Assembly (NCBI GenBank): GCA_030698395.1
Contig: JAUYKW010000011.1
Location: forward strand, 1-37,584
Direction of reading: 5' to 3'
DNA from: a bacterium
Lineage (GTDB): Bacteria > Patescibacteriota > Patescibacteriia > UBA9570
DNA length: 37,584 bases
The notes beneath the pieces are model-generated. The model did no database searches. It had not been told where the DNA came from and worked only from the letters and a program-made list of their open reading frames with translations. Of the stretch, positions 28,611 to 37,584 are shown piece after piece. How positions within the stretch are numbered: the first letter of the stretch is position 1; every line of letters starts with the position of its first letter. Both the position numbers and the translations under genes were made by a program.

Positions 28611-29657
28611 TTAAAACTGATCTAAGAAGCGCAGATCACCCTTCATAAACTCTCTTATATCAGGAATTCCATATTTTAGCATTGCCAATCTGTTTATGCC
28701 GATGCCAAATGCAAATCCCGTATATTTACCTGCTTCATATCCTGCGGATTCAAATACTTTTGGATGAATCATTCCACATCCTAGCATTTCTACCCATCCA
28801 GTATATTTGCATGTTTTACAGCCTTTTCCATCGCAATTCACGCAGGAACAATCAGCTTCAAATCCGGGTTCTACATATGGAAAATAACCTGGTCTTAATC
28901 TAATTTGAACGCTCTGTTGTAAAATCTTAGACATTGCCTCCTTTAACACATAGGTTAAGTTAGAGATTGATACATCTTCATCAACAACAAATCCTTCCAT
29001 CTGATAAAAAGTGTGTTCATGTGATGCATCTATAGCTTCATTTCGAAATACTCTTCCAGGTACAACTATTCGTAATGGTGGCTTTTGTTGTTCCATGATA
29101 CGAACTTGCATATTGGAAGTGTGAGTTCTTAGAACCTCTTCAATATCACTGTTTTGATATTTTTTTACATAGAATGTATCCTGTAAATCACGCGCTGGAT
29201 GAGTTGCTGGTATATTAAGATATTCAAAACAATAAAGTTCATTCTCTAGTTCATTTCCTTCGTGAACACTAAAGCCCATTGAATAAAAAATATCAACCAA
29301 TTCTTCTTGTACTTGTCGTAATGGGTGGATTCTTCCGAGTGATGGAGTTTTTCCTGGCAGAGTTACATCAAAGTTAGACATCTTCGCTGTTGTTGATTTG
29401 TATTCAAGTGCTAGCTTGTCTAATTTTGCAAGTATTTCAATTTTTGTCTCATTCGCAAGTTTACCCAAATTCTTCTTTTCTGCAGGATCTTTTATACTTT
29501 TAAGGCCTCGTAAAACATTGGTTAGTTTGCCTTTTTTACGATTAAAGAAATAATCATTAATAGCATCTACATCTGTAATAGATTTAACTTCGGAAGATTT
29601 CACTTTGAATTCTTCTTGAATTGATGCTAATTGAGTGTCCATGTCTTGATTACTCAT
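28611..29657 (-). CDS. pheS: Phenylalanyl-tRNA synthetase alpha subunit
   Basis: Catalytic class II synthetase subunit. 348 residues: N-terminal coiled coil (about 1-95), motif 1 region HPLRQVQEELVDIFYSMGF, motif 2 GRVFRNEAIDASHEHTFYQMEG and motif 3 GFAFGIGINRLAMLKYGI. A cysteine cluster at 270, 272, 275, 280 and 283 (CSCVNCDGKGCKTC) looks like a zinc knuckle of the kind present in several bacterial PheS proteins. Start overlaps the stop of the membrane protein gene by 4 bases, so both come from one transcript. Confidence 0.96.
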   Translation of the reverse strand: MSNQDMDTQLASIQEEFKVKSSEVKSITDVDAINDYFFNRKKGKLTNVLRGLKSIKDPAEKKNLGKLANETKIEILAKLDKLALEYKSTTAKMSNFDVTLPGKTPSLGRIHPLRQVQEELVDIFYSMGFSVHEGNELENELYCFEYLNIPATHPARDLQDTFYVKKYQNSDIEEVLRTHTSNMQVRIMEQQKPPLRIVVPGRVFRNEAIDASHEHTFYQMEGFVVDEDVSISNLTYVLKEAMSKILQQSVQIRLRPGYFPYVEPGFEADCSCVNCDGKGCKTCKYTGWVEMLGCGMIHPKVFESAGYEAGKYTGFAFGIGINRLAMLKYGIPDIREFMKGDLRFLDQF

Positions 29658-30085
29658 AATTCTTTGGTTGGTGCATTTCTAGGTTGAGCTCTTTTTCTTG
29701 GATCTGGATTTTTCATCAAATAGAAACTCTCTAATACAACTAATCCGCCCAATAATAATAAGACAGACCACCACGTAAATAAATCGCTTGCCAATAACAC
29801 TAAAGACATGACAATTACAATTGAAAACCAAACTGCCTGCCTAATTGAAGGTGATATAAACCTAAATGCAACTACTTTCTCATGATGAAGACGTTTTAAA
29901 CCCATTCTTATGCCTAAACCTAGCATTGTAAATGTTCCTAATAAGGAAAAAAACAATGCTGCATAAAAAACAAATATTCCTATTCTGGAAGCCTCAGGAT
30001 CAATGTAAAATAAAACAGTAAACCAAGCAATCCAGCTAAAAAGTGTTACAACACAAATGGAAATTAAAAAATCTTTTAATGTCAT
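29654..30085 (-). CDS. Four-helix membrane protein upstream of pheS, unknown function
   Basis: 143 residues, not recognised. Hydrophobic helices at about 8-28, 36-60 (FVFYAALFFSLLGTFTMLGLG), 85-104 (AVWFSIVIVMSLVLLAS) and 106-124 (WWSVLLLLGGLVVLESF), with a basic C-terminal tail (NPDPRKRAQPRN). A conserved-looking cytoplasmic loop (RMGLKRLHHEKVVAFRFISPSIRQ) joins helices 2 and 3. Translationally coupled to pheS by a 4-base overlap, yet no link to tRNA charging is evident. Confidence 0.65.
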   Translation of the reverse strand: MTLKDFLISICVVTLFSWIAWFTVLFYIDPEASRIGIFVFYAALFFSLLGTFTMLGLGIRMGLKRLHHEKVVAFRFISPSIRQAVWFSIVIVMSLVLLASDLFTWWSVLLLLGGLVVLESFYLMKNPDPRKRAQPRNAPTKEL

Positions 30086-30128: not shown

Positions 30129-33100
30129 TTATTTACTTTCATGAGCTGCTACTGCTCTCTCCCATTGTTCTCTATAGAAATCTACGTTAGACATAACTTC
30201 CGAAGTAGGGACACCCTCTCGGAATAAGCTTAGTCTGTAATCTGTAAAAGAACTTCCTGGCGTATAGTAGATATCGGGTTCGCCTTCTGGAATTATTCCT
30301 AATGCACCATTTAGTTCTCTAGACGCTTCTGCAAATTCAATACGTGCAGCAGTTTCTAAGCTAGCTGGATCTACCTCAGGACGTGCCTCTTGATATGCAG
30401 TAATATAATCAGCTTCAGTCATTCCTGGTTTGAATCCTGGATATTCAGTAGTTATTGATTCCATCTGTGCAAGATCTTCTATAGCCTGAGTTAATTTTGC
30501 AGGCATAGCTTCCAATGCACTGTCTAGGGCAGATTGATTAAGAGCTTCATGTGTCGCTGTATCATATAAAAGAATTATTGGGTTTTCTGCAGTTCCAGAT
30601 AATACAACAGAATACTTATCCTTATCCATTACCCATAGTTGTTCATTACTATCCTCACTCCAGATTGAAACATCTTTTCCATCAATGTGTATTTTTTCTT
30701 GAGCTAGAAGAATTGGCTTTGTCATTCTTAAAGCCCATTTATGTACATCTCCTTCTCCGGAGAATCCAAACTCATCAGCTCTAGCTTCTAATTGACGTGT
30801 TAGAGGATGTGACACACCTTCGCCTGCCTTAATTGTCATATTGCCCCATTCTTCATCGGTAAAGGATCCAATACCTGGGATTGTAATAGGTTTAACTACT
30901 TCTGCAATAGCTGGTTTTGTGCCTGTTAGTACATCCTCAGATGGAGTATCTGTGTCTACAATATTAGGTTGTGGTGCCGGCTCCGTTCCAGTTGATAAAT
31001 CTGTTTCAATATTTATTTCTGAATGTGGAGCTGGAGCTATAATGTCTGCTGGAGTATCAGTGTTTGCAATAGATTCTTGACCATTAAAAGAATGAACTAA
31101 CTCCGGTATCATAGCTCCAATAGTAAATCCTACAGCCTTGGTAATTGTAGCAGTAGTTCTTCTTCTATTTGCTGTAGCTAGACTATTCTGTAGTTCTTCT
31201 TCAAGTAGTTTTGTTGCTGAACTAACTTCTGAGAGTGCATTTTGTGCATGTAATAATAATGCTTGATCATAAACATCAACAGCCTCAATTAATACTTGTC
31301 TTTCAGTTGGAGATAATCCAAGGTATTCAGCTTGTTTTATTCTAGATCTTGCTCTCGCAACATCTATTTTATCCATTCTTGATACTGAAATATTCTCAGA
31401 GGCTTCTCTTAATCTATCAATCAGGGCTATGTTTGATGGATATAATCTTCCAGATTCAGATCCTCGAGTAGCAAAACCACGTACTAAATCAGCTGCTCGC
31501 ATACCTGCAATTCCTCCCAAAACATTTCTTAATATTGGCATTTCTCTTGCTAAAACAGCAATAGTTGTATATGCAGTGGTAGCGATATTCTTATCAGTTA
31601 AAGTTTCTCCACCTCGAACTAGTTTGTTCTCAGTTAAAAATGCCATGCATTTAGATAGCCACTTTGGCTTACGTTCACGCTCTGCTTCTCGTTCTAAGGT
31701 CAATGAGTTTTGATCAAGACTATATAGAGCAGCTGCTGCATTAGCCATTTGTTCGATCCCTAATACTTTTACTTTTTCGTAATAAGCTTCTTTAGCTGTT
31801 GCTAATTCATCTCTTAAAATATCTCCAATTGCATAACCAGTTCTTGCGTCTTGGTATGCTTGATAAATAGTTGGCGCCTGTTCTAACATCATTGAGTCAA
31901 TCATCCTGCCACGGTAGGCATCTCGTTCCATGTTAATTACTTCTGCCAAATCATTTCTCTCGATCTGTTTTCTATTTCCTGTACTATCTAAATATTTGTC
32001 TCTAGCTTCGCTAATTGTAGTATACCCAAATGCAAGTTCATCATCACGATTGTCAATTTGTTGCTGTTTAGTTGAAGCGAGTTCCGCTAGAAGATCTTCT
32101 CGTACTTTTTGAAAAAAGTCCGAATCTTCAAGACGCAGCATTTCTCGCAGGCTTCTTTCCTTTGCAATAATATTGTTTCTTCTTGATCTGTCTGTTAATA
32201 AATTATCAACTAATCTAGTTCCTAACATCACACCCGCAATTTGCGCACCTGGAATCCACCCGGTTGCAGCTATTCCCACGCCTGCTCCAATATAACCGGC
32301 GGCTTTGAGTAAGCCTTTCTTCCAGCTCCTATTAGATTTTTCTAATTGTTTAGCTTGTTGATGAATTCTTTCGCTTTGTCTTTGCAGAACTAATAGTACC
32401 TTGTCTACAGGGATACCTAGTTCTGTAGCGATTTGATCAATACCTGGATGTTCCTGTGCATTAGATACTCCTATACTTATTACTTCTTCAATGAGATTAT
32501 TTATGTTTTGTAGTAATGCATCATTTGCTTGTAGGGCCTCTATTCTGACATATCTTGCCTGAGCTAATTCTCTATTAAAAGAATCAACATCTGCTGTTTG
32601 TTGCCTTAATTTAAACTCATTTAATAAATCACGAATGTTTGTGTCTGGCGTAGTTGATTTCACTGGAACTGCCTCCCCGCGATTTGGATTAGGCATGGTT
32701 ATTGGTGGTAATTTCCTATCTCCGGCTACCACTCCAACATGAGTTTCTTGCTCTGATTCTGCAGCATCCATTACATCAACAACTGCTTCTTTTAATAATT
32801 TATCCCATCCATCAATAGGGCCGATTTTTTTAAATGGAACATTTGTTCCATCATGAACAGTTAACTGCGCTTCATCCTTTGTAAGTTCACAAACTATTGT
32901 TAACTCATCACCATAGGAAAATTTTACAATATCTAAGTCATCGATTGCACTTTCTCTTGTAATCTCACAATCCGTTAGACCATCAATTCCCATATCAACC
33001 ACTGCACCATTTTTAAAAATCACTTGCTGAGTAGTTTTGTCATACTTAGTTAATCCAGGTAAAGCTCTCAATGAAATAACTTTACGACTATTATCACTTT

Positions 33101-35690
33101 CCTGCTTTATATGAGCAAGAATTTCATCCATAAATGATGCAAAATCTGTTATATTTCCACTACGCATGAACAATCTTGCTGTACCATCAGCACCAGTAAC
33201 TATCAATGAACCATCTTCAGAAAGTCTGCAGACGATATGATAATCATCGTTATATCTGAATTGTATTTTTAAGTTATCAGAGCTTCGATTTAATACTAAT
33301 AACTCACAAGCCGGTAAGTTAGGAATAGACATAGCTATATCAATTCCTGTAGCTAGTGTAAATGTTTGGCTTTCAGCATCAAAAACTCCTAAATCTGTTA
33401 GGGTAAGTTCATTTTCTGGTGTTACTTGGATAGTTTCTGCTTGAACAGTTGGTTGCTCTTCAAAAGCCTGTTCTCCTAGTCTTTCTACTTTAATAACTTG
33501 TACTGTAATATTGTCTCCATGTTTTCGATATCCCCATTGATCTTCAGCAAAACCGTAGCGTGTGGCGTCCATATTAACAATATCATTATCTCCAGGCCCC
33601 CATTTAATTTGAAAATCAACAACAGAATTAGCTCTTGAAAAAGCTAGATCAAATATCTCTCTTTGTAACTTAGCCGTATCCCCATTGGATGTAATTGCTA
33701 ATTGCTCAATCTCATATTCACTAACTAGGTCTGTGATAGCTCCATCTGAACCAACTATAATAAAGTCATCTTCTTGGGCCTTAAATTCTAGTGCATTATC
33801 TTCATTATGATTACGTTCTCTACCAGTTGATGAAAGAATTACATTATTATTTGGATGTATAAAATATTGTCCTGCAGTAGCACCCGCTCTTTCAATGGCT
33901 GCTGTAGCTACATTATCAGGTATTGATGTAGCATCTCTAAGAATTTTTCCATTACGAATAGTAATAATCTTGGCATCACCGCTCCAACCAACCTCTGTAT
34001 TACCAGTTGTTTCTATTTTAACAATTGCGCAACAAGCATAACTACTGCCCTGATAACTATTATATACAGCCGTGTTAGCTTCTTTTAAAGCATCGTTTAC
34101 TGAAACTCCTTCCTGTAATTTTCTTTCAATTGTTATATTAGCAATTCTACTAGCTCCTAAACCATTGTTACTTCCCCCAGCTCCATCAATAACTCCGGCA
34201 ATCAATGCTCTGGTAGGTGTTTCTCCAGCAAACATAGTATCTTGATTTTCGTATGAATATTTTGATGCTGGTCCACCATAATCGCAACGGCCGTCAATTG
34301 TTCCAATAGATGTTGTTATGTGGATTTCTCGATCTCTTTCTAGTACCTCAGAAGGATGTGTATACCTACCTTTTTCAAAAATAACCTGTCTTGATTCTCC
34401 AGTGTCTATTTTTTCTCGCCATTCTTGTTTTTCACTAGGCTCTGTTTCCATATCCTCTGATTGAACAGTTTGTTCTGCATTCTGCTCTGTTGGTAGTTCA
34501 AAACTTTCCAATACTCTATAACCATCTCCTTGATCATTTAGGACTATTTTATCTGGAGTTACTCCAAGTCTGCCGGCTGTTTCATTAATGGCATTTGGCC
34601 TGTCTTGTAAAAAAACTTTCCAAATAGCTGCAAGCTCCATTGTGCTATTAAATGTGCATGGAAAAAAACCACCCTCTACACCCCAAAAATCCGCAGCCAC
34701 CAATTTTGGTTCACCGCTTCGATTAGAGTGTTTGAGCTGTACTTCATATTTATATTTATTTCCATGCTTGAACATTAATTTAACAGTGTCACCGACTCTT
34801 TCAAATCCACTATAAATTACAGGAGGTAAGCCAATAATACTTAAATCTACAATTACGTCACCTTCCAAAATTAGTTCTTGAGATAAAACATCAATTGATT
34901 CTAAACCAGGAGATAAATCGTCTAATTTTGTTGCAATGCTATGAGGCTCTGGCAAGGATGTACTGTCAATATTATTAACTCGTTCTGTTTCAATTTCATC
35001 ATTTTCAAGATTCTCTATTTGTTTGGTATCAAGTTCTGGTACTAGATAATCATCTACATCACTACCCAAAGCTGCTTGCCATGTTGCTCTTTCAGTATCT
35101 ACATTAGATGCCCAACTTAAAGCCTGTTCATACCCTCTCCTAATAGCATCTTTTATCTCTTCTTCTCTATCCAATTGTTGCGAAATATCAATAACTATTT
35201 TCAATAATTTTTTTTTATCTGTGCTATCAGGTGTATGCACTATAGGCTCTTCAAAAGCTAATTCTTGAAGTAAGCTTCTCATCGTTGTAATTTGTGAGGC
35301 GTTCAACTCATCAAATTTAACTAATTCAGCAATGGCATTTGATAATGATTTTGGTTCAACTATAATAAGTTCGGTTTCAAGTTCAACAGCAGGTGAAGCT
35401 GCTGCAGCCACATCCGCTCTTGCTTGCATTGCTGTTATTCTACCTTGATCTATCAGCCTTTGAAGAACGGCTTTATCCTCCGGAGATGCAACTACAGCTA
35501 CTTCTGTTGGAAGTTCAGATAACTTATCTTCGGCAGTGTTTATTCCAGCACGAACTGCATCCGCTGCCTGATTTAAAGCATTTACTGGATCAATTTCAAT
35601 AAGACCAGTGATCTCTGGTTTAAGTTGTCCTGGTGGTATCCCTGGTTCAGGAGGGATATTTTTTTTTGCTGGATCTTTCGGATCTGCCAT
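30129..35690 (-). CDS. Giant multidomain protein with PP2C-type phosphatase domain
   Basis: 1853 residues, not assignable as a whole. Residues 1-40 are Pro-rich and disordered, and 41-270 helical. A PP2C Ser/Thr phosphatase domain (about 458-735) has the metal-binding aspartates: ENQD (D484), GVIDGAGG (D502), WSGDAK (D572), VGSDGAITD (D649) and HGDNITV (D726), so it looks catalytically intact. Three diverged copies of a beta-rich module lie at about 276-363, 776-862 and 889-976. Helical/coiled-coil regions (1015-1120, 1165-1350, 1415-1510) are separated by hydrophobic Gly-rich segments (1124-1160, 1368-1402, 1512-1532). A Pro/Thr-rich linker (1538-1605) leads to a C-terminal domain (about 1606-1712) whose IKAGEGVSHPLTRQL is vaguely LysM-like. 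Membrane attachment with the C-terminus outside is possible but inferred. No partner kinase is in the window. It lies 3 bases downstream of a small coiled-coil gene. Confidence 0.8.
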   Translation of the reverse strand: MADPKDPAKKNIPPEPGIPPGQLKPEITGLIEIDPVNALNQAADAVRAGINTAEDKLSELPTEVAVVASPEDKAVLQRLIDQGRITAMQARADVAAAASPAVELETELIIVEPKSLSNAIAELVKFDELNASQITTMRSLLQELAFEEPIVHTPDSTDKKKLLKIVIDISQQLDREEEIKDAIRRGYEQALSWASNVDTERATWQAALGSDVDDYLVPELDTKQIENLENDEIETERVNNIDSTSLPEPHSIATKLDDLSPGLESIDVLSQELILEGDVIVDLSIIGLPPVIYSGFERVGDTVKLMFKHGNKYKYEVQLKHSNRSGEPKLVAADFWGVEGGFFPCTFNSTMELAAIWKVFLQDRPNAINETAGRLGVTPDKIVLNDQGDGYRVLESFELPTEQNAEQTVQSEDMETEPSEKQEWREKIDTGESRQVIFEKGRYTHPSEVLERDREIHITTSIGTIDGRCDYGGPASKYSYENQDTMFAGETPTRALIAGVIDGAGGSNNGLGASRIANITIERKLQEGVSVNDALKEANTAVYNSYQGSSYACCAIVKIETTGNTEVGWSGDAKIITIRNGKILRDATSIPDNVATAAIERAGATAGQYFIHPNNNVILSSTGRERNHNEDNALEFKAQEDDFIIVGSDGAITDLVSEYEIEQLAITSNGDTAKLQREIFDLAFSRANSVVDFQIKWGPGDNDIVNMDATRYGFAEDQWGYRKHGDNITVQVIKVERLGEQAFEEQPTVQAETIQVTPENELTLTDLGVFDAESQTFTLATGIDIAMSIPNLPACELLVLNRSSDNLKIQFRYNDDYHIVCRLSEDGSLIVTGADGTARLFMRSGNITDFASFMDEILAHIKQESDNSRKVISLRALPGLTKYDKTTQQVIFKNGAVVDMGIDGLTDCEITRESAIDDLDIVKFSYGDELTIVCELTKDEAQLTVHDGTNVPFKKIGPIDGWDKLLKEAVVDVMDAAESEQETHVGVVAGDRKLPPITMPNPNRGEAVPVKSTTPDTNIRDLLNEFKLRQQTADVDSFNRELAQARYVRIEALQANDALLQNINNLIEEVISIGVSNAQEHPGIDQIATELGIPVDKVLLVLQRQSERIHQQAKQLEKSNRSWKKGLLKAAGYIGAGVGIAATGWIPGAQIAGVMLGTRLVDNLLTDRSRRNNIIAKERSLREMLRLEDSDFFQKVREDLLAELASTKQQQIDNRDDELAFGYTTISEARDKYLDSTGNRKQIERNDLAEVINMERDAYRGRMIDSMMLEQAPTIYQAYQDARTGYAIGDILRDELATAKEAYYEKVKVLGIEQMANAAAALYSLDQNSLTLEREAERERKPKWLSKCMAFLTENKLVRGGETLTDKNIATTAYTTIAVLAREMPILRNVLGGIAGMRAADLVRGFATRGSESGRLYPSNIALIDRLREASENISVSRMDKIDVARARSRIKQAEYLGLSPTERQVLIEAVDVYDQALLLHAQNALSEVSSATKLLEEELQNSLATANRRRTTATITKAVGFTIGAMIPELVHSFNGQESIANTDTPADIIAPAPHSEINIETDLSTGTEPAPQPNIVDTDTPSEDVLTGTKPAIAEVVKPITIPGIGSFTDEEWGNMTIKAGEGVSHPLTRQLEARADEFGFSGEGDVHKWALRMTKPILLAQEKIHIDGKDVSIWSEDSNEQLWVMDKDKYSVVLSGTAENPIILLYDTATHEALNQSALDSALEAMPAKLTQAIEDLAQMESITTEYPGFKPGMTEADYITAYQEARPEVDPASLETAARIEFAEASRELNGALGIIPEGEPDIYYTPGSSFTDYRLSLFREGVPTSEVMSNVDFYREQWERAVAAHESK

Positions 35691-36440: not shown

Positions 36441-36758
36441 ATGGCAAATGGAGCAGAGATAGTTGAAAAAATAAAAGAGAAGGAAGAAGCATTTGATAAT
36501 GCTGTATCTGAAGCGAAACACAACGTTGAACAACAAGTACAACAAGTACGAGTTGAACATGAAAAATTGAAAAGTAATTTAGAAAATGCGATCGATCCAG
36601 AAAAGATGAAAATTTTTGAAAAAGCAACTCAGGAAGTGAAAGCCAAAAAAAGTGAATACAAAAAAAAACAAAGTGATGACATGTCTAAAGTAGAAAACAT
36701 AAAAGAAGGCCAAATAAAGAAAATCGCTAAAGAAATAGTTGACGAGATCATCGGATAA
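36441..36758 (+). CDS. V/A-type ATPase peripheral stalk subunit (G/H-like)
   Basis: 105 residues, almost entirely a charged coiled coil (VSEAKHNVEQQVQQVRVEHE and onward), rich in Lys/Glu/Gln, ending in a short helix KKIAKEIVDEIIG. This matches the layout of the archaeal AhaH / Thermus-type G stalk subunit, which pairs with subunit E in the peripheral stalk. The identification rests mainly on position: the next gene, 2 bases downstream, is subunit I, the usual order in V/A-ATPase operons. Sequence alone would only say coiled coil. Confidence 0.75.
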   Translation: MANGAEIVEKIKEKEEAFDNAVSEAKHNVEQQVQQVRVEHEKLKSNLENAIDPEKMKIFEKATQEVKAKKSEYKKKQSDDMSKVENIKEGQIKKIAKEIVDEIIG

Positions 36759-36760
36759 TA

Positions 36761-37584
36761 ATGGCTGTAGCAGAAGTAAAAAAAATTCAATTAGTTGGAA
36801 TAAACAAACATAGGGATAATATCCTAAATTTGTTGCAAAATACTGCTGCTGTTGAACTTATAGGAGAGACAGAGAGTGAAGTCGTTGTTCAATCATTGGA
36901 ATATGATATTGCTCAAATCGCTTATGCGATAAATTTTGTATCTGAGCATTTTGATGAAAAAGTGCCGATGATTGAAAAAATCAGAGGTGGAAAGTATAGA
37001 TTATCCAAAGAAGAGATAGAAAAAATAGTTGAAGATTTTGATTATAAGTCGATAACTAATGAACTAACAGATATTGGCACAAATTTAACTGCTGTAAATA
37101 ATTTAATTGAGAAAAATACTGAAGAAATTGAATTGCTTCAACCTTGGATGGAATTAACAGCAGCTCCTATTGAATTTCAGGACACAAAGCTTACTGGCAT
37201 TTTACTTGGAACAATTAGCACGGCAAACTTTGACGAATTAAAGGTTCGGTTGAGGGAAATTAAGGATGATGTGGAAATTACACTTGTTTCTAAAGATGAA
37301 AAAGACTCTAGAATCATGGTTGTTTTTTCAAAAACTGTTATTAGTGAGTTAACAAAGTTATTGGAAGAACATAAATTTGAGACAACATCACTACCTCATC
37401 AAGAAAATATTCCTAAAGAAACTATTGATAGATTAACAAAAGAAATAGAGACTACAGAAATAGAACGTGAAGCGCTAGAAAAAAAGATTTGTGATTTTGG
37501 TAAAGATATAAAGAATTTGAAGATTTTACATGATTTTTTAACATGGCAATTGAGCCAGAAATCAGCAGAAAGATTTGTTGAAAA
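36761..37584 (+). CDS. V/A-type ATPase subunit I, cut by window edge
   Basis: Membrane stator subunit that forms the ion half-channels with the c-ring. The frame opens MAVAEVKKIQLVGINKHRDN at 36761 and continues to the right edge (274 residues). It covers only the N-terminal cytoplasmic domain: an alpha/beta start typical of subunit I (contact residues for stalk subunits), long coiled-coil helices (about 100-130 and 225-265) and a second alpha/beta lobe (LTGILLGTISTANFDELKVRL). The membrane half lies outside, so ion specificity cannot be judged. The start is 2 bases after the previous stop. Confidence 0.85.
   Translation, partial: MAVAEVKKIQLVGINKHRDNILNLLQNTAAVELIGETESEVVVQSLEYDIAQIAYAINFVSEHFDEKVPMIEKIRGGKYRLSKEEIEKIVEDFDYKSITNELTDIGTNLTAVNNLIEKNTEEIELLQPWMELTAAPIEFQDTKLTGILLGTISTANFDELKVRLREIKDDVEITLVSKDEKDSRIMVVFSKTVISELTKLLEEHKFETTSLPHQENIPKETIDRLTKEIETTEIEREALEKKICDFGKDIKNLKILHDFLTWQLSQKSAERFVE

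Follow-up and report, generated by a model that had tools for sequence, protein, structure and literature searches.

Organization of the locus

The window, i.e., the whole stretch of DNA analyzed, is an entire contig of 37,584 bp from a genome totalling 1.32 Mb. The host is an ultra-small, parasite-like bacterium of a Kerfeldbacteria-like Patescibacteria family, which we take to belong to the class ABY1. An Rfam search of the window returned no RNA families. The initial annotation reported an open reading frame at 30129-35690 encoding 1853 residues, and we found it on the minus strand, starting with ATG and free of internal stop codons (Table 1). This giant reading frame is genuine. The initial annotation had raised the possibility of an assembly chimera, which was ruled out because the PP2C domain, the core, and the C-terminal domain align collinearly with a syntenic homologue of 2220 residues (G003).

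The gene order gyrB-pheT-pheS-small membrane protein-giant-DUF5663 is conserved in relatives from the same family. Giants of 1181, 1692, and 2220 residues were found in the same place in G001, G002, and G003, respectively, between the pheS side and an ATP-synthase-like operon. Gene names at the locus were assigned by eye, except for PheS, which was confirmed with Pfam in the window. The small membrane protein belongs to this conserved order and its association with the giant is not specific. The plus strand at 36441-37584 of the window encodes a 105-residue coiled-coil protein with a weak match to V-ATPase G (E = 0.0012), and a cut-off coiled-coil frame; in this place, three family relatives carry what appears to be an F-type ATP synthase operon. 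A V-type ATPase beyond 36441 was unsupported, with no V_ATPase_I match in the genome.

Table 1. Features of the giant gene and its neighbors in the window (residue numbers refer to the giant protein).
Feature	Position	Strand	Basis
Giant protein, whole ORF, 1853 aa	30129..35690	-	ORF call
N-terminal region, residues 1-260, without family match; Pro-rich at the start, predicted helical/acidic after it	34911..35690	-	Translation, Pfam
Alpha/beta repeat 1, residues ~268-340	34671..34889	-	z 6.2 and 5.1; low-confidence model shows strands
PP2C phosphatase domain, residues ~450-745 (D484, D502, D572, D649, D726)	33456..34343	-	Profiles, motifs, fold search
Alpha/beta repeat 2, residues ~765-870	33081..33398	-	z 14.2 with repeat 3
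Alpha/beta repeat 3, residues ~884-982	32745..33041	-	Local alignment against shuffles
Core (helical/hydrophobic), residues 1003-1535, with conservation among other giants	31086..32684	-	Homologue comparison
Gly-rich hydrophobic hairpin A, residues ~1124-1160	32211..32321	-	Hydrophobicity
Gly-rich hydrophobic hairpin B, residues ~1366-1400	31491..31595	-	Hydrophobicity
Possible single membrane crossing C, residues ~1508-1532, preceded by Arg-rich NRRRTT	31095..31169	-	Hydrophobicity, sequence
Pro/Thr-rich linker, residues ~1533-1594	30909..31094	-	Sequence
C-terminal domain, residues 1598-1853	30132..30899	-	40% identity to second giant of the genome
DUF5663-family partner gene, 111 aa	35887..36219	-	HMM trained without it, E = 2.2e-21
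Membrane protein, 143 aa, downstream, in conserved order beside pheS	29654..30085	-	Locus comparison

The PP2C domain

The initial annotation recognized an intact PP2C phosphatase with all expected metal-binding aspartates, a reading that the failure to predict a PP2C fold at residues 458-735 would have refuted. Our analysis recovered both the aspartates and the fold. The motifs ENQD (D484), DGAGG (D502 and G503), SGDA (D572), SDG (D649), and GDN (D726) were complete. The metal-ligand aspartates of motif I, DGxGG, SDG, and GDN correspond to D484, D502, D649, and D726, and D572 is located in the SGD motif. The Pfam model PP2C_2 scored 22.5 bits on the whole protein, below the cut-off of 24, and 27.7 bits, above the cut-off, on the same stretch scored in the genome. 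The NCBIfam Stp1/IreP profile matched residues 481-685 (E = 8.5e-13). The score against the Stp1/IreP equivalog NF033484 was 48.4 bits with a curated cut-off of 230, and the domain is therefore not Stp1 itself. Sequence comparison alone matched PDB chains of a bacterial phosphatase (E = 4e-4). The structure of residues 255-1000 was predicted from an input of two sequences only, with modest confidence in the PP2C part (block means mostly of 50-72) and poor confidence elsewhere. With this model Foldseek gave 2pk0 as the best match (E = 3.9e-12, probability 1.00, target TM 0.70), and PstP and tPphA were among the further matches. Judged from its complete motifs, profile match, and fold match, the domain is a true PP2C, and we infer that it would be catalytically active in vivo.

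PP2C domains were found inside the giants of the window, G003, G002, G004, and the loci L196 and L209, the last two being from distant families. The metal-ligand motifs are retained in the window giant, in G003, and in L196 and L209. In G012, PP2C is encoded by a separate gene located 11 nt after the giant. The giant of G004 (L015:7625-11377, plus strand) carries a degenerate PP2C, in which YAAGA replaces DGAGG and SFGYS replaces SGDA, and it is likely a pseudo-phosphatase.

Regions outside the PP2C domain

The PP2C domain makes up about 15% of the chain. The remaining 85% was originally described as lacking any recognized family; this stands insofar as no Pfam or NCBIfam family besides PP2C was matched in a whole-protein profile search, whereas the core and the C-terminal domain do have relatives in other giants. 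Comparison of the core profile to known structures revealed no relatives. Scanning with the full-length giant across named genomes and viral contigs gave none either; the family diverges too rapidly for short exact peptides.

The repeated modules proposed from the first reading are three alpha/beta copies of about 95 residues that flank PP2C, one on its N-terminal and two on its C-terminal side. Local alignment of the pairs gave z-scores of 6.2, 5.1, and 14.2, none of which was reached in 300 shuffles. The Pro/Thr linker and the C-terminal domain noted earlier were also recovered. The C-terminal domain has 40% identity to a region of a second giant encoded in the same genome (2223 residues, contig 14, L012:4062-10733, minus strand; DUF5663 gene directly upstream at L012:10750-11058, minus strand). 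The second giant shares only this C-terminal-type domain (its residues 755-1000) with the window giant. Pfam LysM did not match the C-terminal domain, and hhalign comparison to the LysM-like tails of other giants gave a probability of 10% over 21 columns. The structure model of the domain had a pLDDT of 49 and was unusable.

Three hydrophobic Gly-rich segments had been reported, and they are present but only moderately hydrophobic. The Kyte-Doolittle (KD) peaks of segments A, B, and C were 1.39, 1.17, and 1.26, which is borderline for transmembrane helices. Segments A-C coincide with conserved, more hydrophobic, hairpin-like stretches of other giants, which are arranged in the same order and have KD values of up to about 2. 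Segment C is preceded by the basic stretch NRRRTT, with no basic residues among the 15 residues after it, which fits a chain that is inside before and outside after this segment.

The moderate hydrophobicity, the charged residues inside segment B (AREMPILR), the unusable C-terminal model, and the lack of an apparent signal peptide would also fit a cytosolic scaffold phosphatase. In such a protein, the Gly-rich segments would be helices buried within a globular or oligomeric core, and no part would reach the cell exterior. We consider this unlikely, as the homologous segments of other giants form strongly hydrophobic hairpins, and a Pro/Thr/Glu linker with LysM-like or muramidase domains comes after them.

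Pairing with DUF5663 genes

The partner gene is located directly upstream of the giant on the same strand, with a gap of 193 nt. The Pfam DUF5663 model (PF18908) on its own did not match the window partner, whereas relatives do match it. We therefore used an HMM built from 54 members of the class, from which the partners of this family's giants were excluded except that of the contig-14 giant. A DUF5663 gene was found directly upstream in all seven giants fetched by similarity (the window, G003, G056, G027, G002, G001, and G004), and none was found with this HMM beside the stand-alone PP2C of G005. Both giants of the host genome have an upstream DUF5663 gene.

The pairing was also observed when starting from DUF5663. 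Among 51 usable DUF5663 loci of the class, 44 had a giant downstream (727-2940 residues, median 1497), defined as a gene of at least 600 residues starting within 700 nt on the same strand; the background for small open reading frames from the same stretches was 24 of 454 (5.3%). The window giant, whose size had seemed striking for a compact genome, is not an isolated case but an instance of a recurrent two-gene module of the class, in which a single giant protein takes up to 9 kb of a genome of about 1 Mb. The gap between the two genes was bimodal in the 44 loci, with 19 at -4 to 48 nt, 25 at 180 to 330 nt, and none between.

Of 381 class genomes, 85 contained DUF5663 by the Pfam model, and a sample of 380 genomes from across the phylum gave DUF5663-like genes in 162. 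The pairing was weaker beyond the class: giants followed directly in L246 (G433), L247 (G402), and L255 (G616), and ordinary genes in the others. One of these three giants has a LysM-like domain (E = 2e-26). In L248, a DUF5663-like gene precedes an FtsZ-like gene. DUF5663 also matched protein A constructs and apolipoprotein, apparently through generic helix similarity, and these matches were set aside.

Since the DUF5663 protein is small, apparently lacks a signal peptide, and is encoded just before the giant, our guess is that it acts as a chaperone or cytosolic adaptor. A short gene placed immediately before that of a giant protein with coiled coils and hydrophobic segments superficially resembles a tail chaperone and tape measure of phages, and one relative carries SLT and VgrG3-like muramidases. 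A tape-measure-like protein or injected effector of phage-tail descent, with DUF5663 as the chaperone, was nevertheless rejected as highly improbable. The loci are surrounded by housekeeping genes (gyrB, pheST, smpB, infC, and rplT; most names by eye) with no tail gene noticed, tblastn of the giant against 50,697 phage records gave no matches, and its sole PHROG match was in the PP2C region.

The small partner gene, together with variable modules on a common backbone, could likewise suggest a polymorphic toxin-like effector with DUF5663 as immunity or anti-toxin partner. Immunity genes usually follow the toxin gene, whereas DUF5663 is upstream. Furthermore, PP2C and kinase domains are atypical as toxin tips, there are few copies per genome at most, and the module is fixed in housekeeping positions within the family. 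We regard this explanation, too, as very improbable.

Diversity of the giants

Besides five seeds, core homology to the window giant was found at first pass for L070 (1.8e-46), L075, L012, L063, L062, and L053, and we claim core homology from these first-pass matches only. An iterated core HMM matched 20 of 42 giants. Its controls were clean except for L047, which had itself been fetched as a DUF5663 locus, and one reversed giant (1.6e-6). It missed all of the ten held-out giants, which came from this type of locus. Many other giants have only position, size, and usually the hydrophobic pattern in common, and the DUF5663-paired giants may not all descend from one ancestor.

The order of PP2C, hydrophobic segments, and C-terminal region is identical in the giants of the window, G003, and L196. 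A LysM-like domain was present in at least nine giants. The DUF5663-paired giant L089:1321-7215 (plus strand; G008), of 1965 residues, has a VgrG3-like muramidase at residues 1250-1427 and an SLT lysozyme domain at 1488-1614, both C-terminal of the hydrophobic segments. Another DUF5663-paired giant, L057:1250-6514 (plus strand; G314), carries a protein kinase domain at its extreme C-terminus (residues 1499-1739).

Large open reading frames of Patescibacteria have been proposed to encode host-attachment or pore-forming proteins (PMC10066038). The high divergence and variable length of the module giants, and the wall-directed modules in relatives, would agree with a role in adhesion or attachment at the surface of an epibiont. 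In that case, the core and C-terminal domain would do the main surface work, with PP2C as a passenger or self-regulating module. However, neither an adhesin domain nor, by eye, a signal peptide was found. PP2C also recurs with intact motifs in giants of distant families and is encoded directly after the giant in G012, which suggests that signalling is part of the role of the giants. We consider this explanation rather unlikely.

Relation to known proteins

The giant shares the fold and all metal-binding motifs with bacterial PPM/PP2C phosphatases (Stp1, PstP, tPphA, and IreP), with Stp1/IreP as the best profile. These are domains of about 240 residues, alone or with one transmembrane helix, to which the giant adds the repeats, the core, and the C-terminal domain. 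The proposed layout is analogous to that of the PASTA-type receptor kinases PknB, PrkC, and Stk1, with a cytosolic phospho-signalling domain, a membrane part, and a wall-contacting exterior. In contrast to these, the giant is a phosphatase, i.e., the opposite enzyme, is much larger, and has a different anchor and a putative outside ligand; neither a kinase domain nor PASTA repeats were found in it by Pfam.

Very large, poorly annotated open reading frames are also known from the reduced genomes of small, often host-associated Patescibacteria and Omnitrophota, and roles in adhesion or predation were suggested for them (PMC10066038). Whereas these were noted for their size, the DUF5663 giants are defined by partner gene, core, and PP2C. 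The open-access journal literature searched contained no mention of DUF5663, and Patescibacteria and PP2C occurred together in a single plant-rhizosphere study. PP2C, giant open reading frames of small bacteria, and DUF5663 are thus each known separately, and as far as this search goes the architecture of the giant and its pairing with DUF5663 appear to be undescribed.

Possible function of the giant

We tentatively favor the possibility that the giant is an envelope-anchored, receptor-like PP2C Ser/Thr phosphatase and the large half of a module with the small DUF5663 protein. The N-terminal half would be cytosolic, with the complete PP2C framed by three repeats that probably bind a substrate or partner. 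The helical core with its Gly-rich hydrophobic hairpins would insert into the membrane as an anchor, and the final crossing and the disordered Pro/Thr linker would place the C-terminal domain outside, where it may contact the cell wall or host surface. An outside cue could then alter the core and thereby how active the phosphatase is or where it is placed. The phosphatase would undo Ser/Thr phosphorylation by Hanks-type kinases of the bacterium. With four kinase matches in the genome, the cell likely has reversible Ser/Thr phosphorylation at its disposal, and substrates may exist.

The receptor-like reading is based on the module order, the charge step at segment C, and the wall-directed modules placed likewise in relatives. 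Against it stand the borderline KD peaks, the low LysM probability and poor model of the C-terminal domain, the degenerate active site in G004, and the held-out giants missed by the core HMM. The kinase of L057, located C-terminal of the hydrophobic segments, is also unlike a simple inside-to-outside order. The suggestion that the protein is a signalling or surface-spanning regulator is still the best reading, with membrane spanning being plausible.

It is conceivable, if doubtful, that the modules form a common system for envelope signalling and wall interaction in the class ABY1 and in some of the other Patescibacteria. In this system, a DUF5663 adaptor would work with a giant membrane scaffold, on which cytosolic phosphatase or kinase modules and outer wall-binding or wall-cutting modules are exchanged between lineages. 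If so, it would be the patescibacterial counterpart of receptor kinases, perhaps sensing host contact. Little is known about the means by which ultra-small, host-dependent Patescibacteria sense other cells and make contact with them, and the conserved DUF5663-giant module, which has an intact phosphatase in this lineage, is a concrete candidate. The pairing also provides a genomic context for DUF5663 and makes both genes testable.

The host genome also encodes tandem kinase-type proteins of 861, 903, and 306 or more residues (L201; G000:C17), and the kinase match was confirmed for the first two. They have the N-terminal motif RFxDTAFD in common with a separate PP2C protein of 561 residues (L200; G000:C14:40000-45000), which may serve for docking or as a phospho-site within one kinase/phosphatase network.
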